From NCBI RefSeq assembly GCF_017308075.1, contig NZ_JAFKFX010000024.1, forward strand, positions 410,645 through 474,644: DNA of 64,000 nt, read 5' to 3'. The notes beneath the pieces were generated by a model. It was not told the origin of the DNA. It was given only the letters and a program-made list of their open reading frames with translations, and made no database searches. The position numbers were made by a program, and so were the translations under genes. Below are positions 35,476-51,694 of the stretch, piece by piece (positions within the stretch are counted from its first letter, which is position 1; each line of letters starts with the position of its first letter). The stretch is from Allobosea sp. GTDB lineage: Bacteria > Pseudomonadota > Alphaproteobacteria > Rhizobiales > Beijerinckiaceae.

Positions 35476-36390
35476 ATGACTGACGAACGCTACACGATCG
35501 GCGAACTCTCCCGGCTCAGCGGCGTGCCGGTGCGACGCATCCGCTTCTATTCCGACAAGGGGCTGCTGCCGCCGGCCAGCCGGACCATGGCGAACTACCG
35601 CGTTTATTCGGATGCCGATGCGGCGCGGCTCGAACTGATCCAGGCGCTGCGTGCCATGGGCGCCAGTCTCGCCGCGATCCGCGGCATGCTCGCGCGCAAG
35701 ACCTCGCTCGTCGAACTGCTGGCGCTGCGCCTGTCGGCCCTCGAAGCAGAAATCGCCGGCAAGCGGCGCATCGCTGCGACCCTGCGCGCCGCGCTGCGCC
35801 ACCCCGAGCCCTCCCCGGACGACATCAGGAGATTATGGACCATGACCTTGCTGTCCAATGCCGATATGCGCGCCCTGACCGAGCGCTTCTTCGAGGAGGT
35901 CACCGGGGACAGGATCAGCCCCGAATGGAAGCGCGAAGCCCTGGCTGCCGGAACCCCGGAGCTGCCGGAAGACCCTTCGCCGGAGCAGATCGACGCCTTC
36001 GCCGAACTGCGGGCAATGTTGAGCGACCCGGCCCTCATCGCCAGCGCCAGAACGGATTCCGCCTCGATGTGGGCGGCGGATTTCGATCCGGCCGCCTATC
36101 ATGCCGCCGCCGGGCGGATCCTTGCCAGCATCCGCCTGGCGATGGCGAAGGACGAGGCTCCAAGCTCCGTGACCGGCCTGTGCATTGCGCGCGATTGGCT
36201 GGACGCCTCGGCCAAGGCGATGAAGCGCCAGCCGGACGAAGCCTTCCGCGCCTGGCATCTCGACCAGTACCGTCGCCACCATGACCGATCGCTGCGCTAC
36301 CAGCAGCTGCTCGCGATCCTGCGCGGCGAGGCGGCGCCCGGGCGCGAATGGTGGTGGATCAACGAGGCGCTGACCGCGCTCAGGCTGTAG
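35476..36390 (+). CDS. MerR-family transcriptional regulator
   Basis: A 304-residue regulator. The N-terminal winged helix is typical of MerR (YTIGELSRLSGVPVRRIRFY, DKGLLPPASRTMANYRVYSD) with the dimerisation helix following (~75-115). The C-terminal ~180 residues are mostly helical and acidic, with no cysteine metal-site pattern, so the effector is probably an organic compound. It may control itself through the operator just upstream and perhaps the TenA-like gene 95 bp downstream. Confidence 0.88.
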   Translation: MTDERYTIGELSRLSGVPVRRIRFYSDKGLLPPASRTMANYRVYSDADAARLELIQALRAMGASLAAIRGMLARKTSLVELLALRLSALEAEIAGKRRIAATLRAALRHPEPSPDDIRRLWTMTLLSNADMRALTERFFEEVTGDRISPEWKREALAAGTPELPEDPSPEQIDAFAELRAMLSDPALIASARTDSASMWAADFDPAAYHAAAGRILASIRLAMAKDEAPSSVTGLCIARDWLDASAKAMKRQPDEAFRAWHLDQYRRHHDRSLRYQQLLAILRGEAAPGREWWWINEALTALRL

Positions 36391-37282: not shown

Positions 37283-37316
37283 CTGTAAGGTGCCTGTAAG
37301 CGCAGGGCGGTCAAAT
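37283..37316 (+). promoter_or_regulatory. direct-repeat promoter of peptide gene 1
   Basis: CTGTAAG at 37283 and 37294 (11-bp period), then ten bases and a -10-like TCAAAT (37311-37316). The last repeat is 70 bp from the peptide ATG. Repeats with 11-bp period replacing the -35 are typical of OmpR/PhoB-class activators. The same arrangement precedes the second peptide gene at 44567-44599. Confidence 0.6.
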
Positions 37317-37370
37317 GCCTCATCAGGCCGGACGAAGCAGTCGCCGGCCGGAAGCGAGAGGAAACTGACC

Positions 37371-37601
37371 ATGACCGCCACCAATGCCTTCGACACCGCC
37401 CGCGACACCTCCATCGCCCTGACCGATGACGAGCTCGACACCGTGGCCGGCGCCGGCATCGGCCAGAAGATCCTGGGCATCGCCCTCACCACGGGCGGCG
37501 TCCTGACCACCGCGACGGGCGTCGTCACCCGCCAGTGGGGCCTCGCCAGCCGCGGCTGCAACATGCTGGTGGACGGCATCGGCCATCTCGAGGCCGCCTG
37601 A
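37371..37601 (+). CDS. double-glycine-type leader peptide 1 (bacteriocin-like precursor)
   Basis: A 76-residue precursor. The leader holds IALTDDELDTVAGAG (residues 15-29), matching the double-glycine leader pattern: Leu17 at -12, Glu21-Leu22 at -8/-7, Val25 at -4, Gly27-Ala28 at -2/-1. Predicted cleavage after Ala28 leaves a ~48-residue hydrophobic, Gly/Thr-rich core (IGQKILGIALTTGGVLTTAT) with one Cys (63). The leader strongly resembles that of the convergent peptide gene 2. A GAGAGGAA ribosome site precedes the ATG. The C39 exporter 1.5 kb downstream is the likely processing partner. Activity is unknown. Confidence 0.72.
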   Translation: MTATNAFDTARDTSIALTDDELDTVAGAGIGQKILGIALTTGGVLTTATGVVTRQWGLASRGCNMLVDGIGHLEAA

Positions 37602-37621
37602 CCTCCCCATAGAGCGAGCAC

Positions 37622-37641
37622 CGGCCCCTTCCGGGGCCGGC
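37622..37641 (+). terminator. hairpin after peptide gene 1, probable attenuator
   Basis: CCGGCCCC (37622-37629), loop TTCC, GGGGCCGG (37634-37641), no U-run. Placed between a small substrate gene and its large exporter genes, it could lower read-through or stabilise the peptide mRNA, so that more peptide than exporter is made. Confidence 0.5.
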
Positions 37642-37759
37642 GCTGCCGGAACGAGAGCAAATCCGCGGCCGCGCGGCAGAAATACTGCCGGCATTTGCGA
37701 ATACTCAACGTTTGGCCAGCTTATCTGGCCGGGATACGGAGAGTTCAGGATCGCTGCGG

Positions 37760-39046
37760 ATGTCAGAGGTTCATTCAGCCCCGACGCCGCAGCGAGCCGG
37801 CGGAACCCTGTTCCGGCAGCAATCCCTGCAACAGCTCGACCGGCCGGAGGATTTCCACGCACCATTGCGCGTGGTCGGCCGCGTCGAATGGGTCGCCGGC
37901 CTGCTCTGCCTGGCGCTCTGCATCGGCATCGTCGTCTGGGCCTGCTTCGCGCGCTATCGCGAGACGGTCGAGGGGCCGGGCATCTTCGTGCGCGGCGGCG
38001 GCGTCTTCATCGGCCTCAACGCCCCGAAATCGGGCTGGGTCGACGGGCTCGTTCCGACCGGCCAGAAGGTCGCCGCGGGCCAGATCGTGGCTTCGCTGAC
38101 CACCCCTGAAGAGGATGCGCGCATCGCTGATCTGGAGCGACGCATCGGCCAGGCCGAAGACCATCGCACCGCCATCACCCAGCGCTACGAGGTTCGCGTC
38201 ACCGCCGAAACCGTCGCGCAGCAGCGCCGCCGCGCGGAACTCGACGAGGCCGTCGACCTCTCCCGCCGCCGGATCGCCGAGGCGGAGGAAACGCTCGCCA
38301 ATCGCGAAATGCTGTTCTCGCGCGGCGCCGGCACCACCGACCGCGTGCAGGAGGCTCGCGAGCGGCTGTTCGGCGCGCGCTCCAGCCTGTCACGCACCCA
38401 GTCGGAACTGGCCGCACTGAACGGTGCCATCCTCGCTTTGGGCGGCGCGCGCGATCAGGAGCTGGAGGCCAGCCAGCGCCAGATCCTCGACCTCAGGGGA
38501 CAGCTCGAACAGGCGAGATTGAGCCGCAGGCTCGCCGACGAGATCCGTGCCCCGCGCGACGGCACCGTAGCTCTGGTGCCGGTGACGATGAACGCCCTGG
38601 TCACCGCCGGTCAAAGGATCATGACGCTGGAGACCGGCGGCGAGCAGCTGGAGGCCCTGTTCTTCGTGCCGGGCGACATGGGCAAGCGCCTCGCGCCGGG
38701 CATGGAGGTGCGGATCTCGCCCTCGATCGCGCCGCGCGAGGAATACGGCATGGCCGTCGGCAAGGTCGTGTCGATCTCGCCGCAGCCGGAGGGCCAGGCC
38801 GAGATCGCCGAGAGGCTCGGCAATCCGGATCTCGCACGGCAGATGGCGCGCAACGGCGCCCCGTTCGAGGTGCGGGCGACGCTCGAAACCGTGCCCGGCG
38901 AGACAGGCGGCTATGCCTGGACCTCGCAGCGCGGCCAGGAAATCCCGCTCAGCAGCGGCCTGCTCCTCACGGCGAACGTCACGGTGCGGCGCGCGCCGCC
39001 GATCACCCTGATCATTCCGGCATTGCGCCGCTGGACCGGGCTGTGA
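37760..39046 (+). CDS. NHLM-type bacteriocin secretion HlyD-family adaptor
   Basis: A 428-residue periplasmic adaptor (membrane fusion protein). After a short cytoplasmic N-terminus with LFRQQSLQQLDRPEDFHAPL, typical of the NHLM HlyD subfamily, there is one membrane helix (VAGLLCLALCIGIVVWACFA), a lipoyl-like half-domain (GIFVRGGGVFIGLNAPKSGW), a long coiled coil (~120-265), the second lipoyl half (IRAPRDGTVALVPVTMNALV) and a C-terminal beta domain. It would link the ABC exporters to the outside. I chose ATG 37760 over 37712 because the family begins there and AGGA lies upstream. First of three co-directional exporter genes. Confidence 0.9.
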   Translation: MSEVHSAPTPQRAGGTLFRQQSLQQLDRPEDFHAPLRVVGRVEWVAGLLCLALCIGIVVWACFARYRETVEGPGIFVRGGGVFIGLNAPKSGWVDGLVPTGQKVAAGQIVASLTTPEEDARIADLERRIGQAEDHRTAITQRYEVRVTAETVAQQRRRAELDEAVDLSRRRIAEAEETLANREMLFSRGAGTTDRVQEARERLFGARSSLSRTQSELAALNGAILALGGARDQELEASQRQILDLRGQLEQARLSRRLADEIRAPRDGTVALVPVTMNALVTAGQRIMTLETGGEQLEALFFVPGDMGKRLAPGMEVRISPSIAPREEYGMAVGKVVSISPQPEGQAEIAERLGNPDLARQMARNGAPFEVRATLETVPGETGGYAWTSQRGQEIPLSSGLLLTANVTVRRAPPITLIIPALRRWTGL

Positions 39047-39058
39047 GGGCACCCGGCC

Positions 39059-41260
39059 ATGACTGAGAGCGCGACCATCGCCGCGGCCGTGCCGCCCCTG
39101 CCGAATGCAGGCCGGCCCCGCCGCGTGCCGACCATGCTGCAGATGGAAGCGGTCGAGTGCGGCGCTGCTGCGCTCGGCATGGTGCTGGCCTATCACGGTC
39201 TCTGGCTGCCGCTGGAGCGACTGCGCGAGGCCTGCCAGGTGACGCGCGACGGTGCCACCGCGGCCTCGCTGCTGCGCGCCGCACGCAGCTTCGGCATGGA
39301 GGCCAAGGGCTGGCGCGTCGAGCCGGTGGCGCTGGCACAGCATCGTTTTCCGGCGATCGCCTTCTGGCAGATGAACCATTTCGTCGTGATCGAGGGCGTC
39401 TCGCGCGGGCGCGTCCAGATCAACGATCCCGCCCATGGTCGGCGCAGCGTCGATGCGGCCGAGTTCGACGGTGCCTTCACCGGCATCCTCTTGACCTTCG
39501 CGCCCACGCCCGCCTTCAAGCCGGCTGGCGAGCGGCCGCGCTTGCTGCGCGCGTTGTTGCCCAAGGGCGGCGAGACCCGCGCCGCGCTCGGCTTCCTCGG
39601 CATCATCGCGCTCTGCAACGTGCTGCCGCCGATCTTCGTACCCGCCGCCGGCAAGATCTTCGCCGACAACATCATGGTCCAGCACGCGACGAGCTGGCTG
39701 CGCCCGCTGCTGGTCGCGCTGATCGGCTCGGCTCTGCTCTCAATGCTGCTGTCCTGGCTGCACGGGCTGGTGCTGGCCCGGCTGCAGCGGCGGCTCGGCA
39801 CGCAATCGGCCATAGGCCTGATGGCGCATATGCTGCGGCTGCCGATCGGCTTCTTCGTGCAGCGCCATGTCGGCGACATCGCCTCGCGCATGGAGGCGGC
39901 GCGCCGCCTGTCGCACAGCGCCGTGGTCTCGATCTCCTCGGCGCTCTTCAGCATCATGGGCGCGCTGATCAGCGCCGCCATCATGATGGTCTACGACGTG
40001 CCGATGGCGCTCGCCTGCTTCGCCTTCGCGACGGCGGACATCGCGGCGATCGCCTTCATCACCCGCGTCCGGGTCGAGGGCGTCAGGCGCGTGGTGGTCC
40101 AGCGTTCGCGTCTGGCCAGCGTCGCGCTCGGCGGCATTCAGTCTATAGAGACGATCAAGGCGTCGGGCGCCGAGGACGCCTTCTTCGCCCGGCTGATGGG
40201 CGCGCAGGCACAATTGCTCAACATGATGCAGGCGCTGGAGCGTTCGACGCTCCTCCTCACTTTGGCGCCCTCGGTGATCAAGAGCCTGTCCTATGCCGCC
40301 CTGCTAGGCTGGGGCGCGCTGAAGGTGATGGATGGCGAGATGACGGTCGGCACGCTGATCGCCTTCCTCGCCGTGCTCCAGGCCTTCCACACCCCGGTCC
40401 AGTCGCTCGTCGGCGCCGTCGCTGGCCTGCAGGAGCTGCGCGGCGACCTCGAGCGCGTGCAGGACACGATGCGCCATGCGCCGGCCTCCCGCCTGCAAGG
40501 CGACGCAGCGGTCTCCGAAAACTGGCCGGCGCGGCAGGCCCGGCTCTCGGGCCGGATCGATATCCGCGGACTCGGTTTCGCCTATCCCGGCCAGGCCGGG
40601 CTGATCGAGGCGCTCGACCTTTCCATCGCGCCTGGCCAATGGGTCGCGGTGGTCGGCGGCTCCGGCAGCGGCAAGTCGACCCTGGCGCGGCTGGTCGCAG
40701 GGCTGTTGCAACCGGCCGCAGGCAGCATCAGCTTCGACGGCACGGCAGCCGGCGACGTGCCACGCCGCGTGCTCGCGGGCTCGCTCGGCTATGTCGAGCA
40801 GGACGTCGTGCTGTTCGAGGGCACGATCCGCGACAACATCGCGCTCTGGGACGGCTCGCTCGACGATGCCCGGATCATCGCGGCGGCGCGCGACGCCGGC
40901 GTCCACGAGGAGATCGTGCGCCGGCGCGGCCAATATGGCGCCGATGTCGCCGAGGGCGGGCTCAATTTCTCCGGCGGCCAGCGTCAGCGCCTGGAGCTCG
41001 CCCGGGCCCTCGCCACCGACCCGGCCATATTGGTCCTCGACGAGGCGACCTCGGCGCTCGACCCCGTCACCGAGGCGGAGGTCTTCGCCAATCTGCGCCG
41101 GCGCGGCGTCAGTGCGTTGGTGATATCGCATCGGCTGAGCACGGTACGCGATTGCGACGAGATCATCGTGCTCGACCACGGCCGGATCGTCGAACGCGGC
41201 ACGCATCGGGCGCTGATCGCGGCCGCGGGCCGCTATGCGGAGCTCGTCCGTGCAGAGTGA
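39059..41260 (+). CDS. NHLM-type ABC transporter, peptidase C39/permease/ATPase
   Basis: A 733-residue bacteriocin exporter that cleaves leaders and transports the product. The N-terminal C39 protease has all three catalytic residues: Cys34 in MEAVECGAAALGMVLAYHG, His107 in WQMNHFVVIEG and Asp123 in VQINDPAHGRRS. Six membrane helices follow (~165-440). The ATPase has Walker A GGSGSGKST (~532-540), signature FSGGQRQRLELARAL, Walker B ILVLDEATSALD and VISHRLSTV. It starts 12 bp after the HlyD gene. Double-glycine leaders like those of the two flanking peptides are the substrate class of C39. Confidence 0.93.
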   Translation: MTESATIAAAVPPLPNAGRPRRVPTMLQMEAVECGAAALGMVLAYHGLWLPLERLREACQVTRDGATAASLLRAARSFGMEAKGWRVEPVALAQHRFPAIAFWQMNHFVVIEGVSRGRVQINDPAHGRRSVDAAEFDGAFTGILLTFAPTPAFKPAGERPRLLRALLPKGGETRAALGFLGIIALCNVLPPIFVPAAGKIFADNIMVQHATSWLRPLLVALIGSALLSMLLSWLHGLVLARLQRRLGTQSAIGLMAHMLRLPIGFFVQRHVGDIASRMEAARRLSHSAVVSISSALFSIMGALISAAIMMVYDVPMALACFAFATADIAAIAFITRVRVEGVRRVVVQRSRLASVALGGIQSIETIKASGAEDAFFARLMGAQAQLLNMMQALERSTLLLTLAPSVIKSLSYAALLGWGALKVMDGEMTVGTLIAFLAVLQAFHTPVQSLVGAVAGLQELRGDLERVQDTMRHAPASRLQGDAAVSENWPARQARLSGRIDIRGLGFAYPGQAGLIEALDLSIAPGQWVAVVGGSGSGKSTLARLVAGLLQPAAGSISFDGTAAGDVPRRVLAGSLGYVEQDVVLFEGTIRDNIALWDGSLDDARIIAAARDAGVHEEIVRRRGQYGADVAEGGLNFSGGQRQRLELARALATDPAILVLDEATSALDPVTEAEVFANLRRRGVSALVISHRLSTVRDCDEIIVLDHGRIVERGTHRALIAAAGRYAELVRAE

Positions 41261-44114
41261 AGTGCTCGAAAGCGCCGCGGCAGCAAGTGAGCAGGCCGCA
41301 ACCCGTATCGCCTGCGAGGAGGGCTTCGCCTACCGGCTCGCCGGCGCGGGCGCCGACCTCTTCGTCGCACAGCAGGGCCAGGCCGGGAGCCTGCACCATG
41401 TCGCGACGCTCGGCGCCGGCGCTGCCGCCTTCGGCCTGGCGGCCCGGAGCGTGCACCTCGTCCTGATCCCTCAGGCCGGCACAGAGATCGAGACGATCGC
41501 CCTCTCACATCTGGCTGGAAGGGCTGACGTCTTCGCGCGCTCCGCCGAGTCCTGGATCGCCGTGATGGCCGAACACGCACGGCATCTGGCGGAGCTTCCG
41601 GCACATGCCGGTGCTGCCGACGGCTTGGCCCCGCACCGGCTGGAGCCTGGGCTTCACAGCCTTGCGGCGGGAGACACCGCCGTGCCCGGCGGCTCGCAGG
41701 CCCTGCTCTGGTACCGGACACGGACCGGCGCCTGCGCCAATGTCTGGGGACGAAGTGGCGATCCACGGGATCTCCCGGTCGCCGTGCTGCGCGGCGCGCC
41801 GCTCCAGGCCGAGCGGGCAAGCGAGATCCAGGTGTTCGACAGCGCCGCGCTGGCCCGTGAAGGCTCCCTCCTCGCCGCGCTCACTGGCTTCAACGATGCA
41901 CTCGGCCAGCTGCTGCAGGCCTGGTTCGACGGCAGGATGGCCGCCCTCGGCCAGCATGTCGCGACGGTCGCCGACGCGGATGCAGCGGCGCTATCGGCAG
42001 CGATGGCGAGGGTCGCGGGGCGAACCGCACCGCGTACGGCTCGGGAAGGCCCCGGAGCCGAACCGCCGCTCGCGGCGGCGGTTCGTGCGGTCGCCCGCGC
42101 GATGGGCGTCAGGCTGCCGGCCGATTTCGACCGCCTGCGCTCGATCGGCGAGAACGGCGACGCACTCGCGCTCTACACCGCCAAGGCCGGTCTGAGGTCG
42201 CGCGAACTCAAGCTGCAGGAGGGCTGGTGGCGCCAGGCCGGCGAGGCGATGATCGGGCAATTGCGCGACGGCACGCCGGTCGCACTCCTGCCGGCACGCA
42301 GCGGCTGGCGGATGGTGCACCCCGGCAGCGGCGAACGCATCAGGGTCGACAACGGCGTCGCGGCCTCGCTGACCCCGCATGCCCATGTGCTCTATCGCGG
42401 CTTCTCCGGCAGCGAACAGCGACCCGGCCGGGCACTCGCCGCCTTCGTCTTCGCAATCGTGCGCGGGGAAATGGCGCTGATCGCGCTGGCAAGCCTCGCC
42501 GCCGGCCTGCTCGCCATGGCGACGCCGTTCCTGTCCGGCATGCTGGTGCAATCGGTCATCCCGGACGGGGTGCGCAGCGAGATTCTGCAGCTCATCCTGG
42601 TGATGGTCGCGGTCGCGTTCGGGGTGATGGGTTTCGAGCTGGTGCGCGGCCTCGCCGTGCTGCGCGTCGAATCCGTGCTCGGCTCGGCCGTCGAAGGGGC
42701 TCTGTGGAGCCGGCTGCTGCGGCTCTCGCCCGGCTTCTTCCGCCGCTACGGCGCCGGCGACCTCGCCTTGCGCGCCGATGCGGTGAACCAGATCCGCCGG
42801 ACCGTCGGCGTCGCCAGCATCACGGCCCTGCTCGGCGTGCTGTTCTCCTCGGTCAATCTCGTCGTGCTGCTGAGCTACGGGCTGAAGCCAGCTCTGCTCG
42901 CGCTCGCGGTCTGCGCCGTCCAGCTCGTGATCCTCGTCGGCATGACCCTGTTCGAGCTGCGATTGCAGCGGCGCGCCCTCGCCAATGGCGGGGCGATGCA
43001 GACGCTGACCGTGCAGATCTTCCAGGGCATCTCGAAGCTGCGCGTCGCCGCCGCCGAGAACCGCTTCCTGGCGCGCTGGATGCATCTTTTCGCCGTGGAC
43101 CAGGCGGTGAACTTCCGGGCGAACGTGGTCGGCAGCGCGGTCGGCGCCTTCGGCGCGGGCTGGAACATCCTCGTCATGGCGGCGCTGATCGGCCTCGTCG
43201 GCCTGGGCGGCGTCAAAATGACGCTCGGCGACTACGTCACCTATTCCGGCGTCTCCGGCCAGTTCGTCTCGGCAATCCTCTCGCTCGCGGGACTGATCCC
43301 GGCGCTGGCGACGGTGCTGCCCCTGTGGGAGCGCGCCCGGCCAATCCTGGCCGAGCCGACCGAAGACGGCGCCGGCGGCATCCACCCCGGAACCCTGCAT
43401 GGCGAGATCGAGGCGTCTCGCATCAGCTTCAGCTACCCCGGCGGGCAGAGCGCGCTCTCGGACGTCTCGCTGCGCATCCCGGCCGGCGCCTTCGTCGCCC
43501 TGGTCGGCCCGTCCGGCTCCGGCAAATCCTCGCTGCTGCGGCTGCTCCTCGGCTTCGAGCAACCCGATAGCGGTTCAGTGCTGCTCGACGGCCATGATCT
43601 GCGCGATCTCGACCGGGGCGCCGTCCGGCGCCAGCTCGGCGTCGTGCTGCAGCACAGCCGCATCGAGGCCGGCAGCCTCTATCACAACATCGCCGGGACG
43701 GCGCCGCTGAGCCTGGAGACCGCCTTCGAGGCGGCGAGCCTGGCCGGGCTCGGTCCCGACATCGCGGCGATGCCGATGGGACTGCACACCTATGTCGACG
43801 ACGCCGGCGCCACCCTGTCCGGCGGTCAGCGCCAGCGGCTTCTGCTCGCCCGCGCCATAGCGAGGCGGCCGCGGATCATGCTGCTCGACGAGGCGACGAG
43901 CGCGCTCGACAATGCGACCCAGGCCCATGTCATGGCAACGCTGGCGCAGATGAACGTAACCCGTGTGGTGATCGCCCATCGCTTGAGCACGGTGCGCGAT
44001 GCCGACCTGATCTATGTGCTGTCGGAGGGGCGCATCGTCGAGCAGGGCGACTACGAGACGCTGGCCGCGGCCGGTGGCGTGTTCGCCGGGCTGATCCGCC
44101 GCCAGATGGCGTGA
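41250..44114 (+). CDS. NHLM-type ABC transporter, permease/ATPase subunit 2
   Basis: About 954 residues. The first ~390 residues form a long variable domain without a C39 protease, as in the second ABC subunit of NHLM systems. Six membrane helices follow (~400-690), then an ATPase with Walker A GPSGSGKSS, signature LSGGQRQRLLLARAI, Walker B IMLLDEATSALD and VIAHRLSTV. The GTG at 41250 has GGAG eight bases upstream and overlaps the previous gene; an ATG at 41235 without a ribosome site is the alternative. It probably forms a heterodimer or a second exporter with the C39 protein. Confidence 0.9.
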   Translation: MQSEVLESAAAASEQAATRIACEEGFAYRLAGAGADLFVAQQGQAGSLHHVATLGAGAAAFGLAARSVHLVLIPQAGTEIETIALSHLAGRADVFARSAESWIAVMAEHARHLAELPAHAGAADGLAPHRLEPGLHSLAAGDTAVPGGSQALLWYRTRTGACANVWGRSGDPRDLPVAVLRGAPLQAERASEIQVFDSAALAREGSLLAALTGFNDALGQLLQAWFDGRMAALGQHVATVADADAAALSAAMARVAGRTAPRTAREGPGAEPPLAAAVRAVARAMGVRLPADFDRLRSIGENGDALALYTAKAGLRSRELKLQEGWWRQAGEAMIGQLRDGTPVALLPARSGWRMVHPGSGERIRVDNGVAASLTPHAHVLYRGFSGSEQRPGRALAAFVFAIVRGEMALIALASLAAGLLAMATPFLSGMLVQSVIPDGVRSEILQLILVMVAVAFGVMGFELVRGLAVLRVESVLGSAVEGALWSRLLRLSPGFFRRYGAGDLALRADAVNQIRRTVGVASITALLGVLFSSVNLVVLLSYGLKPALLALAVCAVQLVILVGMTLFELRLQRRALANGGAMQTLTVQIFQGISKLRVAAAENRFLARWMHLFAVDQAVNFRANVVGSAVGAFGAGWNILVMAALIGLVGLGGVKMTLGDYVTYSGVSGQFVSAILSLAGLIPALATVLPLWERARPILAEPTEDGAGGIHPGTLHGEIEASRISFSYPGGQSALSDVSLRIPAGAFVALVGPSGSGKSSLLRLLLGFEQPDSGSVLLDGHDLRDLDRGAVRRQLGVVLQHSRIEAGSLYHNIAGTAPLSLETAFEAASLAGLGPDIAAMPMGLHTYVDDAGATLSGGQRQRLLLARAIARRPRIMLLDEATSALDNATQAHVMATLAQMNVTRVVIAHRLSTVRDADLIYVLSEGRIVEQGDYETLAAAGGVFAGLIRRQMA

Positions 44115-44191
44115 CCACCGGCGATCAAGGAGCGGCTGGCCGACCGGGTCCGCCAATGCAGCAGCGGCGACGCCGCTCCTTCTCGAAACAT

Positions 44192-44225
44192 GATCGCCCG
44201 GCTCCCTGGGGAGCCGGGCGATCAA
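44192..44225. terminator. bidirectional stem-loop between exporter and peptide gene 2
   Basis: TGATCGCCCGGCTCCC (44192-44207) pairs perfectly with GGGAGCCGGGCGATCA (44210-44225), a 16-bp stem. It lies between the converging ABC subunit 2 and peptide gene 2 and could end both transcripts, though U-runs are short. Confidence 0.75.
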
Positions 44226-44243
44226 AGGACAAACTCGACCGTA

Positions 44244-44507
44244 TCAGCGGATGGCGACGGTGACCTCCTTGGTGCCGTCGAACTTGATGAAGTGGCGCTT
44301 GCCGTCGATCACCTCGCTGCGCACGTTGCCGCCACCGCTGCCGGCCGTCGCATGGAAGTTGGCGGGATTGCCGGTGAAGGAGGAGTGGCTCTCCTTCCAG
44401 ACCCACCACTCGCCGCGGCTGGGGGCTACCCACTGGCCGGCGCCGCCGGCCGCGGCCTCGAGCTCCTCATCGGTCAGGGCGATGTTGTTCAGGTCCTGCT
44501 TGGTCAT
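44244..44507 (-). CDS. double-glycine-type leader peptide 2 (bacteriocin-like precursor)
   Basis: An 87-residue precursor on the opposite strand to the exporter. Its leader, IALTDEELEAAAGGAG (residues 9-24), nearly repeats that of peptide 1 and fits the double-glycine pattern: Leu11 at -12, Glu15-Leu16 at -8/-7, Gly21-Gly22 at -2/-1. Predicted cleavage leaves a ~65-residue core that starts AGQWVAPSRGEWWVWKESHS, rich in Trp at first, then Gly/Ser, then charged; it has no Cys and no likeness to core 1. Start ATG 44507 follows GAGAGGAA, as in peptide 1. Upstream is the same direct-repeat promoter. Activity unknown. Confidence 0.72.
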   Translation of the reverse strand: MTKQDLNNIALTDEELEAAAGGAGQWVAPSRGEWWVWKESHSSFTGNPANFHATAGSGGGNVRSEVIDGKRHFIKFDGTKEVTVAIR

Positions 44508-44566
44508 CGGCTTCTTCCTCTCTCCATCCATCCGACCGTCGCGGCCGGCTCGTTCAGTGAGAGGAC

Positions 44567-44599
44567 CTTATGCCGGCCTGCCTTACACCAACCTTACTG
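44567..44599 (-). promoter_or_regulatory. direct-repeat promoter of peptide gene 2
   Basis: On the minus strand AGTAAGG and TGTAAGG stand at an 11-bp period (plus-strand CCTTAC at 44592 and 44581), then nine bases and a -10-like CATAAG (44572-44567). The last repeat is 73 bp from the peptide ATG, against 70 bp for peptide 1. GCAGG after the repeats is also shared. Confidence 0.6.
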
Positions 44600-44689
44600 T
44601 TCGTCAGACCCCGCAACGCGGCTGCATTCCAGCCCGTGCCTGCGCCGGCGCCCCCCCAAACCCGACGCCAGCGCGGCTGAACCTCCCGA

Positions 44690-45511
44690 TCAGAAGCTCG
44701 ACGGCGTGTTGATCCAGATCACCACGGTTTCCTGCCCGCAGGCATTGCGCCAGGCATGAGGCCTGCGGCTTTCGAAATAGAAGCTGTCCCCGGCTTCGAG
44801 GACGAAGAATTTGTCCCCGTCGAGAACGATCTCCAGGCTGCCCGTGAGGACGTGCAGGAACTCCTCGCCCTCATGCTCATAGGTGCCTTCGCTCGAAGCG
44901 CCCGGGGCGAGCTGGAAGCGATGACATTCCATCAGCGTCTGGCCGCGCGCCAGTGCCTGCACGGTCACGCCGGGAGAGGTCGGCGGCCATGTCGCCCAGG
45001 CACCGGAGCGCACCAGGGATTCGCGCTGGTCGTAATCCTCCTGCCCGCTGATCGCCGCAACCGTCGTGCCGAAATGACGGGCGAGCTCGTGCAGGGCCTT
45101 GAAGGACAGGCCGAGCGAGGTCCGCTCGAAGGTCGAGAGCACCGAGACCGGAATCGCCGTCGCCTGGGCGACATCCTCCAGCGTCTCATGCGCCGCCTGG
45201 CGCAGCCGCCGCATCTTCAGCCCGACCGGAACCTCCGGCGCTGACGCCTCCGCAGCCGCCACCCCCGCCGGCGGCTCGGGGGCGTCCTCCCGGCGCAGGC
45301 GATCGGCGATCGCCGGCGGGTTTAGGCCCTTCTCGCGCCGCAGCCAGGCGATCTCCTGCAGCCGGTCGAGCTGCTCTCGGCTGTAGAGTCGCTGTCCCGA
45401 GGCGGTCCGGATCGGCTCGATCAGCCCTTGCGCCTCCCAGAGCCGCAAGGTCGAGGCCGAGACGCCCGCCATGCGGGCCGCCTCGGTAATGCGAAATCGA
45501 ACAGGCTCCAC
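44690..45511 (-). CDS. MerR/XRE/cupin triple-domain transcriptional regulator
   Basis: A 273-residue regulator with three parts. Residues ~5-75 are a MerR helix-turn-helix (FRITEAARMAGVSASTLRLW, EAQGLIEPIRTASGQRLYSR). Residues ~98-155 are an XRE/Cro helix-turn-helix (LKMRRLRQAAHETLEDVAQA, SVLSTFERTSLGLSFKALHE). Residues ~190-270 are a cupin (GTYEHEGEEFLHVLTGSLEI, DSFYFESRRPHAWRN). XRE-cupin proteins such as PuuR sense polyamines or related amines; a MerR domain in front is unusual. It is divergent to gabT-gabD with a perfect palindrome between, the likely operator. Confidence 0.9.
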   Translation of the reverse strand: MEPVRFRITEAARMAGVSASTLRLWEAQGLIEPIRTASGQRLYSREQLDRLQEIAWLRREKGLNPPAIADRLRREDAPEPPAGVAAAEASAPEVPVGLKMRRLRQAAHETLEDVAQATAIPVSVLSTFERTSLGLSFKALHELARHFGTTVAAISGQEDYDQRESLVRSGAWATWPPTSPGVTVQALARGQTLMECHRFQLAPGASSEGTYEHEGEEFLHVLTGSLEIVLDGDKFFVLEAGDSFYFESRRPHAWRNACGQETVVIWINTPSSF

Positions 45512-45557
45512 ATCCGGTCCCGGGCTGCGCCGATCGTCACGGCGATCGCGCGAAAAC

Positions 45558-45663
45558 CTAGAGCATCGGGCCGAAAAGTGGAATCCACTTTTCGGAAAAA
45601 TCCGATGCTAAAACAAAGAGCTAGATCGTCACTTCGCGTCCGATAGGACGCGCGAGGATCTAG
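45558..45663. repeat. ~105-bp dispersed palindromic repeat, copy 2
   Basis: CTAGAGCATCGGGCCGAAAA, palindromic AAAAGTGGAATCCACTTTT, TCCGATGC, then a divergent middle and ...GAGGATCTAG. It lies in the regulator-gabT gap. See copies at 16549 and 62885. Confidence 0.85.
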
Positions 45664-45690
45664 GCAGGAAAGCGTCTCGCGGCCATCTTG

Positions 45691-45717
45691 TTTTCTTGCA
45701 GAAAAACTGCAAGAAAA
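45691..45717. promoter_or_regulatory. perfect palindrome upstream of gabT, probable operator
   Basis: TTTTCTTGCAG (45691-45701), AAAAA, CTGCAAGAAAA (45707-45717): 11-bp arms, 5-bp spacer, 50 bp before the gabT ATG. It is the best candidate site for the divergent MerR/XRE/cupin regulator. Confidence 0.7.
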
Positions 45718-45766
45718 TATTCGAAGAGTTGCCGGCACAGGCACGGCCATCCGAGGGGAGCAAGCA

Positions 45767-47047
45767 ATGTCCAATTCCGCCATCGAAGCCCGCCGGGCTG
45801 CGGCCGTCTCGCGCGGCGTCGGCGTCGCCACGCAGATCTATGCCGACCGGGCGCAGAACGCCGAGCTCTGGGACGCCGAAGGCAAGCGCTATATCGACTT
45901 CGCTGCCGGCATCGCCGTGGTGAACACCGGCCACCGCCATCCAAGGGTGATCGCGGCGGTGCAGGCCCAGCTCGAGCGCTTCACCCACACCTGCCATCAG
46001 GTCGTGCCCTATGAGAATTATGTCGCCCTGGCCGAGCGGCTGAACGAGGCCGTGCCTGGCGACTTCGCCAAGAAGACCATCTTCGTCACCACCGGTGCCG
46101 AAGCGACCGAGAATGCGGTGAAGATCGCCCGCGCCGCCACCGGCCGCTCGGCCGTCATCGCCTTCGCTGGCGGCTTCCACGGCCGGACCTTCATGGGCAT
46201 GTCGATGACCGGCAAGGTGGCGCCCTACAAGGTCGGTTTCGGCCCGATGATGCCGGAGGTCTACCACATCCCCTTCCCGGTCGAGCTGCACGGCGTCACC
46301 GCTGAGGCTTCGCTGGCCGCGCTCGACCGGCTGTTCAAGGCCGATGTCGATCCGTCGCGCGTCGCGGCGTTCATCATCGAGCCGATCCAGGGCGAAGGCG
46401 GATTCTACGAGGCGCCGCGCGCCTTCATGGCGGCCCTGCGGGCGCTGGCCGACCAGCATGGCATCCTGCTGATCGCCGACGAGGTGCAGACCGGCTTCGC
46501 CCGGACCGGCCGGATGTTCGCGATGGAGCGCACCGGCGTGGTCGCCGACATCACCACCATGGCAAAGGGCCTCGGCGGTGGCTTCCCGATCGCAGCCGTG
46601 ACCGGACGCGCCGAAATCATGGACGCCCCCGGTGTCGGCGGCCTCGGCGGAACCTATGGCGGCAACCCGATCGGCATCGCTGCGGCCCATGCCGTGCTCG
46701 ACGTCATCGCCGAAGAAGGGCTCTGCGCCCGGGCCGAGCAGCTCGGCGCCCGCCTGAAGCAGCGCCTGCAGTCGCTGACGGCCGATGTGCCTGAGATCGC
46801 CGACATCCGCGGCCCCGGCTTCATGAACGCGGTCGAGTTCACCTTGCCGGGGACGAAGACCCCCGCCCCCGACTTCACCAATCGTGTCCGCGCCCGCGCG
46901 CTCGAAAAGGGCCTGATTCTGCTGAACTGCGGCGTCTACGGCAATGTCATCCGCTTCCTGTCGCCGCTGACGATCAGCGACGAGACCTTCTCCGAGGCGC
47001 TCGACATCCTCGAGGACAGCCTGCGCGAATGCGCTGCGGAGGCCTGA
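45767..47047 (+). CDS. gabT: 4-aminobutyrate--2-oxoglutarate transaminase
   Basis: A 426-residue class III PLP aminotransferase converting 4-aminobutyrate to succinate semialdehyde. Key parts are [52 protein letters not shown], the PLP Asp in [14 protein letters not shown] and the PLP Lys in [14 protein letters not shown]. Start ATG 45767 has GAGGGGAG upstream. It is 4 bp from gabD, so they form an operon. A close relative such as 5-aminovalerate aminotransferase is possible; the gabD partner favours GABA. Confidence 0.93.
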
Positions 47048-47051
47048 GACG

Positions 47052-48530
47052 ATGGCGCTCGCAGCTAGCCTCCTCGCGCGGCTCAAGGATACCTCGCTCG
47101 CCGTCGAATGCGGCTTTGTCGCCGGCCGGCCCGTCGACGCAGCGGCAACCGGTCGGACTTTCAACGTTACCAACCCCTCGACAGGCGAGGTCCTGGCGAC
47201 GCTGCCGGATCTGAACCGGGCCGAGGCGTCGGCCGCCATCGACGCGGCGCAGGAGGCACAGAAGGACTGGGCCGCTCGCACCGGCAAGGACCGGGCGGCG
47301 ATCCTGCGCCGGCTGTTCGACCTGATCGTCGCCAATGCCGACGATCTCGCGGCGATCCTCACCGCCGAGATGGGCAAGCCGCTGGCCGAAGCCAAAGGCG
47401 AGGTCCTCTACGGCGCCTCCTATGTCGAATGGTTCGGCGAGGAGGCCAAGCGGGTCTATGGCGACACCATCCCCGGGCACCAGCCCGACAAGCGGATCAT
47501 CGTCGTCAAGCAGCCCGTCGGCGTGGTGGCGGCGATCACGCCCTGGAACTTTCCGAACGCGATGCTGGCGCGCAAGCTGGCGCCGGCCCTCGCCGCCGGC
47601 TGCGCCATGGTGGCCAAACCCGCCTCGGAAACCCCGCTCTCGGCCCTCGCCCTCGCCGTCCTCGCCGAGCGCGCCGGTCTGCCCGCCGGGCTCTTCAGTG
47701 TGCTGCCCTCGACCGATTCGGTCGCCGTCGGCCGCGAGTTCTGCGAGAATCCGAAAATCCGCAAGCTGACCTTCACCGGCTCGACCAATGTCGGCAAGAT
47801 CCTGATGCGGCAGGGCGCCGACCAGGTGCTCAAGCTCGGGCTCGAGCTCGGCGGCAATGCCCCCTTCATAGTCTTCGACGATGCCGATCTCGACGCTGCC
47901 GTCGAAGGCGCGATCGTCTCGAAATACCGCAATAACGGCCAGACCTGCGTCTGTGCCAACCGCCTCTATGTCCAGGCTGGAGTTTACGACGCCTTCGCCG
48001 AGAAACTCGCCGCGCGCGTCAGGCAGATCAAGGTCGGCGACGGTTTCGAGGCGGGCGCGCTCGCCGGCCCGCTCATCTCGGACAAGGCGCTGGCCAAGGT
48101 GGAGGAGCACATCGCCGACGCGACCGCGCAAGGCGCGCAGGTGCTGACCGGCGGCCGGCGCGACCAGCGCGGCGGCCTCTATTTCGAGCCGACCGTGCTG
48201 ACCGGCGCCACCGCCGCGATGAAGGTCGCGCGCGATGAGACCTTCGGTCCGGTCGCCCCCCTGTTCCGCTTCGAGACCGTCGCGGAGGTGGTGGCGATGG
48301 CCAACAACACCGAGTTCGGCCTCGCCTCCTATCTCTATTCGCGCGACGTTTCGAAGATCTTCCGCGTCGCCGAGGCGCTGGAATACGGCATGGTCGGCAT
48401 CAACACCGGGCTGATCTCGACCGAAGTCGCACCCTTCGGCGGCATCAAGCAATCGGGTCTCGGCCGCGAGGGCTCGAAATACGGCATCGAGGACTATCTC
48501 GAGATCAAATACCTCTGCCTCAGTGTCTAG
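47052..48530 (+). CDS. gabD: succinate-semialdehyde dehydrogenase (NADP+)
   Basis: A 492-residue aldehyde dehydrogenase. It has [20 protein letters not shown], the cofactor loop [10 protein letters not shown], the catalytic Glu in LELGGNAPF and Cys in [11 protein letters not shown], with a neighbouring Cys two residues on as in other GabD proteins. [15 protein letters not shown] and the ending [13 protein letters not shown] are typical of GabD. It completes GABA breakdown to succinate. The last 11 bases overlap the convergent TetR gene. Confidence 0.94.
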
Positions 48531-49188
48531 CTAGCACGCCCGGAGCGTCCGGGCGCGCCTGCCTGGGCACGACGCCGAGAAAGATGATCAGGACATGCTT
48601 CTCGATCTCGTGCTTGAGCGCGTCGAGCGTCATGGTCTCGTCCGAGATGAAGCGGCCGAAATGATAGGTGCCGATCGCGGTGATCAGTTCGGCCAGCGCC
48701 CTGATGTCGACATCGGCATCGAGCTGGTCGCGCTCCTTGAAGGTACGCAGCATGCGCCGATAGTGCCGTTCGATCAGCCAGCCGAAGATGATCCCGGCGC
48801 GGTGGAGACGGCTGCCGGGCTGGAGATAGGGCGCGGACAGAATGACCCGCCAGCATTCCCGGCCGAGCGTGCGCATCGCCTGATCGGCGAGCAGACGCTC
48901 GAAGCCCTGCACGGCCTCCATGGGATCGCCCGGCGGATTCTGCACGAAGGCGCTACGCTCGGCCCAGGAGCTGTAGGCATGCCGCGCGGCCAGCGCGGTC
49001 AGGATGTTCGCCTTGTTTGTGAAGTAGTTATAGACCGTGGCCGGCGCGACCTCGGCCGCCTCGGCGATCTCCTCGATCCGCGTGCTGTCATAGCCGCTCT
49101 GCGCGAACAGGCGAGAGGCCGCGCCCAGAATGAGCCCGATGCGGTGCTGCCGGTTGCGCTCTCTCAGTCCGATCACTTTGCTGGCCAA
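48520..49188 (-). CDS. TetR-family transcriptional regulator
   Basis: A 222-residue regulator. The N-terminal helix-turn-helix is typical ([47 protein letters not shown]), followed by a ligand-binding C-terminal domain. The start is TTG at 49188 with a perfect AGGAGG six bases upstream. It overlaps the gabD 3' end by 11 bases and stands divergent to the polyamine-type ABC operon, which it most likely represses. Confidence 0.9.
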
Positions 49189-49341
49189 AACGCCCTCCTG
49201 TTCCCCGCGAGCCTAGCTCAAAAAATTTTAGAGTGGGCTCTTTTTTTATAGTTGACTCTGATTTTGAGGCAGCTAAGCTCCATAATCGTTCGACCAGACA
49301 GCCAAGGTCGAAATAAATATAACAGAGGGGCTGCCTTGACA
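49189..49341. promoter_or_regulatory. AT-rich divergent promoter region, TetR / ABC operon
   Basis: The most AT-rich stretch of the catabolic region, with AAAAAATTTTAGAGTGGGCT and a T7 run. AGAG-TGGG-CTCT (49230-49241) is a small inverted repeat and AGAGT recurs inverted as ACTCT at 49255; these are candidate TetR half-sites. No convincing -35/-10 pair could be fixed. Confidence 0.4.
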
Positions 49342-50436
49342 ATGACGGCAACGATTCCAGGTCATGACCTGTCGATATCTCGTGTCTCGAAGACATTCGG
49401 AACATTCAAAGCTGTCAAAGACGTCTCTCTAGACATCAAGGGCGGTGAATTTCTTACGATGCTAGGTCCTTCCGGTTCCGGGAAGACCACCTTGTTGATG
49501 ATGATTGCGGGCTTTGTGCAGCCCGACCAAGGTAGCATCCACCTCGACAAGCAGCCGATCACGCATCTGCCGCCGGAGTCGCGCAATTTCGGCATGGTCT
49601 TTCAGGGCTATGCGCTGTTCCCGCATCTGTCGGTCTTCGACAACGTCGCCTTTCCGCTGAAAGTGCGCCGGCGCCCGCGCGCCGAGATCGAGGAAAAGGT
49701 CAAGGCGGCACTCGAGTTGGTCAAGCTGACGACCCAGAGCGAGCGCCTGCCGCGCCAGCTCTCGGGCGGGCAGCAGCAGCGCGTCGCCCTCGCTCGTGCG
49801 CTCGTCTTCACCCCTCACCTTCTCCTGCTCGACGAGCCTTTGAGCGCGCTCGACAAGAAGCTGCGCGCCGAACTCCAGGAGGAGCTGAAGCGCCTGCACC
49901 GCAAGGTCGGCCTGAGCTTCATCTATGTCACCCATGACCAGGACGAGGCGCTGTCCATGTCCGACCGCATCGTCGTGATGAGCGACGGGCGACTGGTCGA
50001 GCAGGGCACACCGAGCGAGCTCTATGATCGGCCCCGCACGGCCTTCGTCGCCGACTTCCTCGGCAAGAGCAATTTCGTGCGCGGCAAGGTCGAGTCCCAT
50101 GTCGGGGACGGTTTCGTATTCTCCGGGGACGGCGTGCGCTTCGTGCAGAAGGCCCGCGACGCCAAGCCGGGCATCGGCTCGAAGGTCACGGTCGCGCTGC
50201 GGCCGGAAAAGCTCTCCATCGTCGCCCCCGGCACCGAAAGCGACAACCGGCTGAGCGGCGTCGTCAGGGAGTGGAACTATTTCGGTTCGGAGTTCCGCGT
50301 CCTCGTCGACACCGCGGGCTGCGGCCCGATCAGCGTCTCCTTGCCGGCCTGGACTGCCGGCAATGCTCCGGAAGTCGGGCAATCCCTCGAACTGGGCTGG
50401 AGTGCGCGGGCGGGGATGGAAGTCCAGGAGGCTTAG
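49342..50436 (+). CDS. ABC transporter ATP-binding protein, polyamine type (PotA-like)
   Basis: A 364-residue import ATPase. Walker A GPSGSGKTT, Q-loop MVFQGYALFPHLSVFDNVAF, signature LSGGQQQRVALARAL, Walker B LLLLDEPLSALDKKLR, switch YVTHDQDEALSMSDR. A C-terminal TOBE domain (~285-355) is present. First gene of the operon. ATG 49342 was chosen; a TTG at 49336 is closer to the GAGGGG ribosome site and may be used instead. Substrate should be an amine given the solute-binding protein and neighbours. Confidence 0.93.
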   Translation: MTATIPGHDLSISRVSKTFGTFKAVKDVSLDIKGGEFLTMLGPSGSGKTTLLMMIAGFVQPDQGSIHLDKQPITHLPPESRNFGMVFQGYALFPHLSVFDNVAFPLKVRRRPRAEIEEKVKAALELVKLTTQSERLPRQLSGGQQQRVALARALVFTPHLLLLDEPLSALDKKLRAELQEELKRLHRKVGLSFIYVTHDQDEALSMSDRIVVMSDGRLVEQGTPSELYDRPRTAFVADFLGKSNFVRGKVESHVGDGFVFSGDGVRFVQKARDAKPGIGSKVTVALRPEKLSIVAPGTESDNRLSGVVREWNYFGSEFRVLVDTAGCGPISVSLPAWTAGNAPEVGQSLELGWSARAGMEVQEA

Positions 50437-50493
50437 CGGCCGGACCTAACGACCGGAAAGCCTCATCTTCATCATCAACGAAAACAGGGGATC

Positions 50494-51600
50494 ATGATGG
50501 AAAAGCAGAGCTTCGCGGAAGATTGCAGGGCCCTTGCGGCCGAACTCGGCAGCGGCCAGACGCGCCGCGACCTGATCCGCAGCGCGCTCGCGCTCGGCGT
50601 CGCGCCGGCAGCGCTGGCACTTGGCGGCGGCGCCGCACGGGCCCAGAGCGGCAAGGAAGTCGTGCTGGTCAATTTCGGCGGCGTCGCGATGAAGGCCTTC
50701 GACGAGGCCTTCGTGAAGCCCTTCGCCGCCCAGGGTGGCAAGATCGTGCTCGACGGCAGCGGCGCGCTGAACGGCAAGATCCTCACCATGGTCCAGTCGC
50801 GCCATGTCACCTGGGACATTTGCGACGCCGGCATCACGACCCTCGCCGAGCTCGGCCCGCACGGCGCGCTGGAGAAGATCGACTACTCGATCGTCGACAA
50901 GAAGAAGCTGGACCCCACCTTTGCCTATGACGAAGGCGTGGTGAACTACATGTTCAGCTCGGTCCTGGCCTGGGACAAGAGCAAGGTCTCGGGCGAGCCG
51001 ACGCTTGCGGACTTCTTCGACACTAAGAAATATCCGGGCCGGCGCATGATGCGCAAGGACTCGCAGGCGATGCTCGAGCTCGCCCTGATGGCCGACGGCG
51101 TGCCGAAGGACAAGCTCTACCCGCTCGACGTCAAGCGCGCCTTCGCCAAGATCGCGACGATCAAGAAGGATCTGCTGTTCTGGAACAGCGGCTCGGAAAG
51201 CCAGAGCCTGATGCGCGACGGCGAATGCGTGATGGGCCTGCTCTGGCACACCCGCGCCAACGTGCTCGCTGACGAGACGCAGGGCCGCGTCACCTACACT
51301 TTCAAGGACGGCCTGCTCCAGCCCGGCCTCTGGGTCGTGCCCAAGGGCAACCCTGCTGGCAAGGAAGCGATGCGCGCCATCGCCTCGATGCAGCAGCCTG
51401 AAGGACAGGTGAAGCTCCTGGCGGCGATGGGCAACGGCCCCGCGAACCCTGCGGCCGATGCGCTCGTGCCGGCGGAACTCAAGAAGAAGAACCCCTCCGA
51501 CGCTGCCAACGCCGCGATCCAGGCCAAGATCAACGCCGAATGGTACAAGGCCAACCATTCGAAGACGTTCCAGAGCTTCCTGGACCTGATCTCCTCGTAA
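50494..51600 (+). CDS. extracellular solute-binding protein, polyamine type (PotD-like)
   Basis: A 368-residue periplasmic binding protein. The N-terminus carries a twin-arginine-like signal, TRRDLIRSALALGVAPAALA, ending GGAARA|QSG. The mature part fits the spermidine/putrescine-binding family: VVLVNFGGVAMKAFDEAFVK, HVTWDICDAGITTLAEL, GVVNYMFSSVLAWDKSK, GLWVVPKGNPAGKEAM. It captures the substrate for the two permeases downstream. A 10-bp stem-loop follows the gene, probably raising its share of the mRNA. Confidence 0.92.
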   Translation: MMEKQSFAEDCRALAAELGSGQTRRDLIRSALALGVAPAALALGGGAARAQSGKEVVLVNFGGVAMKAFDEAFVKPFAAQGGKIVLDGSGALNGKILTMVQSRHVTWDICDAGITTLAELGPHGALEKIDYSIVDKKKLDPTFAYDEGVVNYMFSSVLAWDKSKVSGEPTLADFFDTKKYPGRRMMRKDSQAMLELALMADGVPKDKLYPLDVKRAFAKIATIKKDLLFWNSGSESQSLMRDGECVMGLLWHTRANVLADETQGRVTYTFKDGLLQPGLWVVPKGNPAGKEAMRAIASMQQPEGQVKLLAAMGNGPANPAADALVPAELKKKNPSDAANAAIQAKINAEWYKANHSKTFQSFLDLISS

Positions 51601-51627
51601 CGGCTGCGCGTCACCCGACGCGCGACA

Positions 51628-51657
51628 GGTCATGCCCTCCGCAAGGTGGGCATGACC
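51628..51657 (+). terminator. intra-operon stem-loop after the binding-protein gene
   Basis: GGTCATGCCC (51628-51637) pairs perfectly with GGGCATGACC (51648-51657) around a 10-base loop, with no U-run. Such hairpins after binding-protein genes often protect the upstream mRNA or reduce read-through. Confidence 0.55.
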
Positions 51658-51694
51658 GCGCCCGAGGGCGCTTTCCCACCCGATCGGACATGTG

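Follow-up and report, generated by a model that had tools for sequence, protein, structure and literature searches.

What does a peptide exporter serve when two small genes, with related leaders and unlike cores, stand on either side of it? The question is raised by a locus in the draft genome (5.55 Mb) of Allobosea sp., in a 64,000-nt stretch, here called the window, which runs to the end of a contig of 474,644 bases (NZ_JAFKFX010000024.1). The locus consists of three genes of an NHLM-type exporter flanked by the genes of two precursors, peptide 1 and peptide 2, and an earlier note, made from the window only, had read it as a two-component secreted peptide system. The two flanking genes look rather like members of a larger set than like the halves of one bacteriocin. 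We propose that a dispersed regulon of secreted peptides is centred on this locus, with a shared promoter and leader, exchangeable cores and a probably antagonistic function, a reading to which we give a probability of about 0.65. The exporter family, the leader rule, the shared promoter, the dispersed copies and the exchange of cores can all be read from the DNA.

The exporter and its two flanking precursors

The HlyD-type adaptor (37760..39046, + strand; start ATG 37760, alternatively TTG 37712) scored 209.4 bits against the NCBIfam model TIGR03794 (curated cut-off 156.2). The C39 peptidase/ATP-binding cassette (ABC) exporter (39059..41260, + strand) scored 933.4 bits against TIGR03796 (cut-off 853.3), and the second, peptidase-less ABC subunit, ABC2 (41250..44114, + strand; start GTG 41250 as in the homologous gene of Bosea sp. 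WAO, alternatively ATG 41235), scored 808.0 bits against TIGR03797 (cut-off 709.4; 41247-44111 scanned). Judged by these models, the exporter is of the NHLM type, and the gene order described in the earlier note was recovered, with the two peptide genes on opposite strands. PF03412 matches residues 23-151 of the C39-ABC protein, in whose translation the catalytic residues Cys34, His107 and Asp123, said to be intact, were all found. The window adaptor is the sole NHLM adaptor found in this genome, 22 of 40 candidates having been scored.

Peptide 1 (37371..37601, + strand) is a 76-residue precursor with a predicted cut between A28 and G29, releasing a hydrophobic Thr/Gly core of 48 residues with one Cys (grand average of hydropathy 0.57). 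Peptide 2 (44244..44507, - strand) has 87 residues, a predicted cut between G22 and A23 and a Trp-rich basic core of 65 residues (hydropathy -0.55, isoelectric point 9.5, no Cys). The core starts are those predicted earlier. Without modification the cores would have average masses, by calculation, of 4778.5 Da (peptide 1) and 7112.8 Da (peptide 2). The leaders read L-12, E-8, L-7, V-4, G-2, A-1 in peptide 1 and L-12, E-8, L-7, A-4, G-2, G-1 in peptide 2, so that both fit the rule for double-glycine C39 substrates as read from sequence: hydrophobic residues at -12, -7 and -4, then Gly-Gly or Gly-Ala. The rule had been given as -12, -8, -7, -2 and -1; both peptides agree with it, but other family members have Ala or Val in place of Glu-8, and position -4 (Val or Ala) had gone unmentioned. 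At the DNA level the two leaders are related (85% over 55 bp), while the best match between the cores covers 8 residues at E 0.31, which bears out the claim of shared leaders and unlike cores.

Neither peptide exceeded any cut-off in Pfam or NCBIfam (PHROGs and PADLOC were not searched), and the profile comparison suggested in the note placed neither in an NHLP, Nif11 or bacteriocin family. The nitrile-hydratase-like leader (NHLP) model of NCBIfam was unlisted for both at E <= 10. Among the Nif11 models (TIGR03798, PF07862), TIGR03798 gave peptide 2 12.3 bits against a cut-off of 32.3 and none was listed for peptide 1. Bacteriocin families stayed below cut-off for peptide 2 (PF04369, 12.9 against 23.1 bits; NF038167, 14.9 against 32) and for peptide 1 (lacticin 481 family NF040664, 11.6 against 46). 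A match of peptide 1 residues 9-59 to a Chlamydia-type inclusion membrane protein (NF052432, E 0.00045) reached 19.7 bits, the cut-off being 240, and was taken as shared composition. Against solved structures the best match of peptide 2 was a pollen allergen (E 0.0053, 20.3 bits), taken as chance, and that of peptide 1 had an E of 0.61.

A promoter box precedes the peptide genes

The earlier note made no mention of a promoter box common to the two flanking genes, and further copies of the peptides were invisible from the window. Both genes are preceded by TGTAAGG-N4-TGTAAG, a tandem direct repeat: TGTAAGGTGCCTGTAAG at 37284..37300 (+ strand), 70 nt before the ATG of peptide 1, and AGTAAGGTTGGTGTAAG at 44582..44598 (- strand), 74 nt before that of peptide 2. 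The pattern GTAAGGT-N4-GTAAG, with at most one mismatch, matched the window twice, both times exactly, and matched none of 100 shuffles. In the whole genome GTAAGG-N5-GTAAG has five matches, 5/5 of them before peptide copies (three of peptide 1, peptide 2 and a peptide 2 paralogue); as the pattern was derived from the peptide genes of this genome, this placement means that the box was not found elsewhere.

As a predictor, TGTAAGG-N4-TGTAAG was searched with at most two mismatches in this genome and in that of Bosea sp. WAO (genome G233, NZ_JXTJ01000004.1), and 30 of the 34 matches were read, four being without a locus. With no or one mismatch, 11 of 11 boxes precede a double-glycine leader gene: five in our genome, one of these genes being broken, and six of six in WAO, where five were new and peptide 2 was known already. 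With two mismatches a leader gene follows in 3/9 cases read in WAO and in 0/10 in our genome. The short-leader genes begin 51-74 nt past the box. Only 0.13% of the positions in 15 loci, many of them picked for such genes, have a short leader open reading frame (ORF) 40-100 nt downstream; the nine rows listed in that scan (eight ORFs) were exporter-locus peptides or peptide 1 copies.

A second element, CATCAG at 37321..37326 (+ strand), begins 20 nt past the box of peptide 1. CATC(A/G) stands 20-22 nt past the box in 9/14 leader promoters, representing 5/7 core families (background 3.1%), and in one of 16 box matches that no leader gene follows, there at 19 nt.

Peptide 1 is dispersed in the genome

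Peptide 1 is encoded three times, on the window contig (C15) and on contigs C59 and C24, with identical protein sequences and DNA that is 96-97% identical across 322-339 bp. The shared block starts 2-6 nt 5' of the promoter box and stops at about the stop codon (15 nt past it for C24 versus C59), and the flanks of the three copies are unrelated in alignment. All six variable sites among the three genes are synonymous; at 30% expected per site, the chance of this is ~8e-4, and the peptide 1 protein has therefore been maintained by selection or by conversion between copies. Assembly duplicates were ruled out by the unrelated flanks and the six synonymous differences, and at 96-97% identity the ends of the unit are unlikely to be a product of decayed flanks. 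Target-site duplications or transposon ends were not seen by eye in the alignment, in which no dedicated search was made. A gene judged by eye to encode a Lon protease is close to the C59 copy.

A paralogue of peptide 2 (67% identical) lies on contig C39 of our genome (L007 1442-1702); it has an in-frame TAG in the leader and an intact promoter box.

Bosea sp. WAO carries other cores behind the same box and leader

WAO has a homologue of peptide 2 (89%, at 504487-504747 of a 766,712-base contig), and its exporter and peptide 2 share 88.9% DNA identity with the window over 6,945 bp (window 37667-44606). In the slot of peptide 1 it has a different gene, first noticed by its position, which encodes a glycine-zipper peptide and runs in the opposite direction. 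At one end the match between WAO and the window extends 8 nt beyond the peptide 2 box; at the other it stops 5 nt short of the box of the WAO slot gene.

In WAO the box led to seven new leader genes. Five are short-leader orphans with the same leader, three of FN type (C1, C12, C39) and two of GL type (C3, C12). The sixth encodes an 842-residue protein (L036 1590-4118) with a leader motif seen by eye and no Pfam match at E <= 0.01; its box lies 223 nt before the ATG, and the gene precedes a second NHLM gene set whose adaptor is above cut-off. The seventh, the weakest case, is a Nif11-leader gene (TIGR03798, 47.2 bits against a cut-off of 32.3) with a two-mismatch box 89 nt upstream of the start. 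The core families are not all unrelated: without composition correction, the WAO slot peptide matched FN_C39 at E 2.5e-5 and GL_C3 matched FN_C39 at 0.003. These cores may be distant kin or may merely share a glycine-rich composition, and were counted as separate families with doubt.

The DNA to the right of the island (window 44672-51693) lies on another WAO contig, at 93.0% identity. The island is thus, at 88.9%, more diverged than its right-hand neighbour, and we conclude from these alignments that either the island or its neighbour has moved. The neighbourhood of the WAO exporter (L038 13101-18124) contains TniQ and a weak, sub-cut-off match to a Mu/rve-type transposase.

Glycine zippers recall the Cdz system of Caulobacter, in which exported glycine-zipper peptides held at the cell surface kill on contact. 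The present locus fits such a system in that small hydrophobic peptides would leave an alphaproteobacterium through a type I exporter, and 11 overlapping GxxxG motifs occur in the WAO slot peptide and 6 and 7 in two FN-family peptides; Cdz needs two such proteins (PMC5380434). However, the extended GxxxGxxxG zipper is absent from both window peptides, with GxxxG counts of 0 in the core of peptide 1 and 1 in that of peptide 2. Moreover, secretion in Cdz is assigned to two genes, cdzA and cdzB, and immunity to cdzI (PMC5380434), whereas here there are three exporter genes and no immunity gene was seen, no CdzC, CdzD or CdzI profile having been run. Contact-dependent killing of the Cdz kind is therefore judged unlikely.

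A candidate regulator and the probable scar of a second operon

An OmpR-family response regulator (PF00072, PF00486; L036 465-1139) adjoins the box of the second NHLM operon of WAO and points away from it. Its orthologue in our genome (contig C47) is 93% identical, has receiver and Trans_reg_C domains and lies next to a kinase (HisKA, HATPase_c). A search of 67 Bosea genomes at E <= 1e-65 recovered the regulator in two, WAO and our own (at most 44 candidates scored per genome), and at E <= 1e-5 a leader profile matched the same two genomes only (5 and 7 places). This regulator, with its kinase, is probably the one that acts on the peptide promoters.

Our genome has the flanks of the second NHLM operon but not the operon itself (L104 9103-9560, contig C47), and the regulator and kinase remain there. 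What is left consists of a box with one intact half-site and a 23-residue C39 scrap (E 2.6e-4), and because this scrap remains, the sequence favours loss in our genome over gain in WAO. Retention of the regulator-kinase pair is as expected if it still serves the dispersed peptides, though not proof of it.

The peptides might alternatively be signals, pheromones sensed by the partner kinase of the regulator, and not weapons. The position of the regulator beside the box of the WAO operon and the kinase next to its orthologue would suit this, as would the layout of the blp locus, whose bacteriocin genes stand under direct repeats and are controlled by a sensed exported peptide (PMC4739728). Against it, the six cores examined have 48-69 residues, which is long for pheromones, and several different cores stand under one promoter type. 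Signalling as their function seems improbable.

A proposed dispersed regulon with exchangeable cores

The regulon reading joins these observations as follows. The OmpR-family regulator would bind the repeat and turn on the peptide set together. The substrates would be small genes, beside the exporter or elsewhere, that combine a common promoter (a tandem 11-bp direct repeat, mostly with CATC(A/G) ~21 nt on) and a common leader with a core drawn from several kinds. One NHLM exporter would recognise the short double-glycine leader, its C39 domain docking and cutting the leader, and the core would leave through the ABC pair and HlyD, as is expected of this family. The slot at the exporter is exchangeable, with peptide 1 here and the glycine-zipper peptide in WAO. 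The regulator and its binding, cleavage, secretion and a killing role are proposed steps. Antagonism of neighbours is the most likely role because the cores form a diverse set, hydrophobic or zipper-like for the most part, that has been amplified and exchanged.

Several results weigh against the reading. With up to two mismatches the box has 17 matches in our genome and 17 in WAO, while reversed-pattern controls gave 24 and 31, and the exact box has five matches in our genome against four for the reversed pattern. The box count by itself therefore proves nothing, and it is the placement that carries the support. CATC(A/G) was picked post hoc from the promoter alignment and is missing from three promoters of peptide 2 type, from one peptide 1 copy and from the Nif11 gene. 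The exporter operon itself has no box in the window, and the exact box is absent in five other Bosea genomes with an adaptor above cut-off. No immunity gene was seen in the island gaps (~160 and ~130 nt), no search having been aimed at one. The leader profile was made mainly from box-found genes and hence provides no independent test of the box. Finally, the co-occurrence of regulator, box and peptides may reflect shared descent, since with one 2.8-kb probe WAO and our genome come out as each other's closest match (94%, the next full-length match being 88%; few genomes match this probe in full).

Within the regulon reading, promoter, leader and core may further form one portable cassette, from box to stop codon, copied to unrelated sites and with cores swapped under a fixed promoter and leader, which the resident exporter and two-component system would serve; the control pair would have outlived its NHLM operon. 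We hold this extension tentatively, as possible rather than probable. If it is true, a cell could gain secreted peptides without a new export or control gene.

The earlier claim of a two-component system stands in part: export of NHLM type is supported, as are substrates that share a leader and differ in their cores, but the pair is not closed, with peptide 1 present three times (twice on other contigs), a different peptide in the WAO slot and five orphans in WAO. That peptides 1 and 2 are nevertheless the halves of one two-peptide bacteriocin would agree with their position around one exporter, their common leader and promoter, the hydrophobic core of one and polar core of the other, and the retention of peptide 2 with the exporter in WAO. 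A class IIb pair usually shares its transcript with an immunity gene, and none was seen in the gaps described above. Together with the repetition of peptide 1 and the different slot peptide that accompanies peptide 2 in WAO, this leaves such a pair quite improbable.

Lastly, the peptides might be precursors of modified products, of lanthipeptide or azole type, as other NHLM substrates are. NHLP precursors figure in the definition of NHLM exporters, with linked work on Nif11 precursors (PMC2887384), and one two-mismatch WAO box precedes the Nif11-leader gene. Against this, NCBIfam and Pfam scans of eight proteins encoded in or next to the locus showed no modifying enzyme (the rest of the genome was not searched for such enzymes), and the core of peptide 2 has no Cys and that of peptide 1 only one. 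Such precursors are judged very unlikely.

Comparison with known systems

NHLM exporters have substrates outside the NHLP and Nif11 families too, and to our knowledge little is known about the control of these. The exporter and the kind of substrate described here are already known; what appears new is a variation in their control, dispersal and exchange of cores. Among the titles and abstract openings of the matches listed, which included few subscription papers, a literature search found no comparable Bosea system and no promoter box of NHLM substrates.

NHLM exporters with NHLP and Nif11 precursors have been described (Haft 2010; PMC2887384). Our locus resembles that system in that all three exporter models are above cut-off and double-glycine substrates adjoin the exporter, whereas the window peptides have short leaders, fall below the NHLP and Nif11 models, lack a modifying enzyme among the scanned proteins and belong to substrates dispersed under one promoter type. 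The groove of the AMS/PCAT double-Gly protease LahT holds leader residues -4, -7 and -12 of a bound substrate (PMC6363468), and the positions -12, -7 and -4 and the double-Gly site of our leaders match that substrate. LahT was, however, assayed on Nif11-type and other leaders of ribosomally synthesized and post-translationally modified peptides, and cleavage here is a prediction from the leader rule.

The blp pneumocin regulon of Streptococcus pneumoniae likewise has several tandem direct-repeat promoters before bacteriocin genes, with blpK off the cluster (PMC4739728); it differs in organism and exporter family, the candidate regulator here has an OmpR-type PF00486 domain, and an inducer peptide was not identified here. 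The Bosea regulon would work like the scattered precursors of the prochlorosins and synechococsins (PMC10783134), which have a modifying enzyme in common and are members of the Nif11 family, in contrast to the shared promoter box and short leaders found here. With Cdz, known for its glycine-zipper pairs (PMC5380434), the likeness lies in small hydrophobic exported proteins of an alphaproteobacterium, and the difference in exporter make-up, in the extended zipper absent from peptides 1 and 2 and in the immunity gene not seen here.

The promoter box could flag exported peptides genome-wide, making orphan substrates findable without a nearby exporter, and the regulon offers a test case for how bacteria assemble exchangeable sets of secreted peptides.

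Occurrence in other genomes and minor features

Across 248 genomes of the family, peptide 1 has a strong match in its own genome only, with three others at E 0.001-0.008. Weak matches in the family (E 0.001-0.01; 3/248 genomes for peptide 1, 5/248 for peptide 2) were left out as likely chance. Neither peptide matched plasmid records (tblastn, E <= 1), and peptide 1 had no relative in IMG/VR.

An NHLM adaptor above cut-off was found in 7/67 Bosea genomes (at most 22 candidates scored per genome), and among seven other Bosea genomes carrying an NHLM-like adaptor the exact box occurs in one, WAO. In two Bosea genomes (L032, L034) the gene directly 3' of ABC2 has a motif order like that of peptide 2 (BLASTP E 0.009 over 34 residues, mostly leader); as the aligned residues are mostly leader, homology of the cores is not claimed. 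A profile including peptide 2 and this gene matched one of 397 genomes of the order, our own. Leader-profile matches with E > 0.001 were excluded from the counts and the three best loci inspected: G267 has a leader gene at an NHLM locus, and G297 and G294 have none by the leader pattern.

The NHLM locus of Bosea G267 (L034 9566-18560) contains, by eye, at least seven genes with double-glycine-like leaders, and two genes of ~160 residues there have Nif11-like starts by eye and no Pfam match at E <= 0.01. At other Bosea NHLM loci, proteins of 410 and 777 residues (L033 16024-17256, L037 1722-4055) carry a double-glycine leader motif by eye.

In the window, two MerR-type regulators lie near the island (44693-45511 and 35476-36387), one of them fused to a cupin domain; a link to the peptides is not shown. 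The interval between peptide 1 and the exporter operon contains a hairpin (37618..37643, + strand; z -2.95 on folding of a 61-nt stretch), and ABC2 and peptide 2 converge on an inverted repeat (44191..44224; z -4.59) that is likely a two-way terminator.

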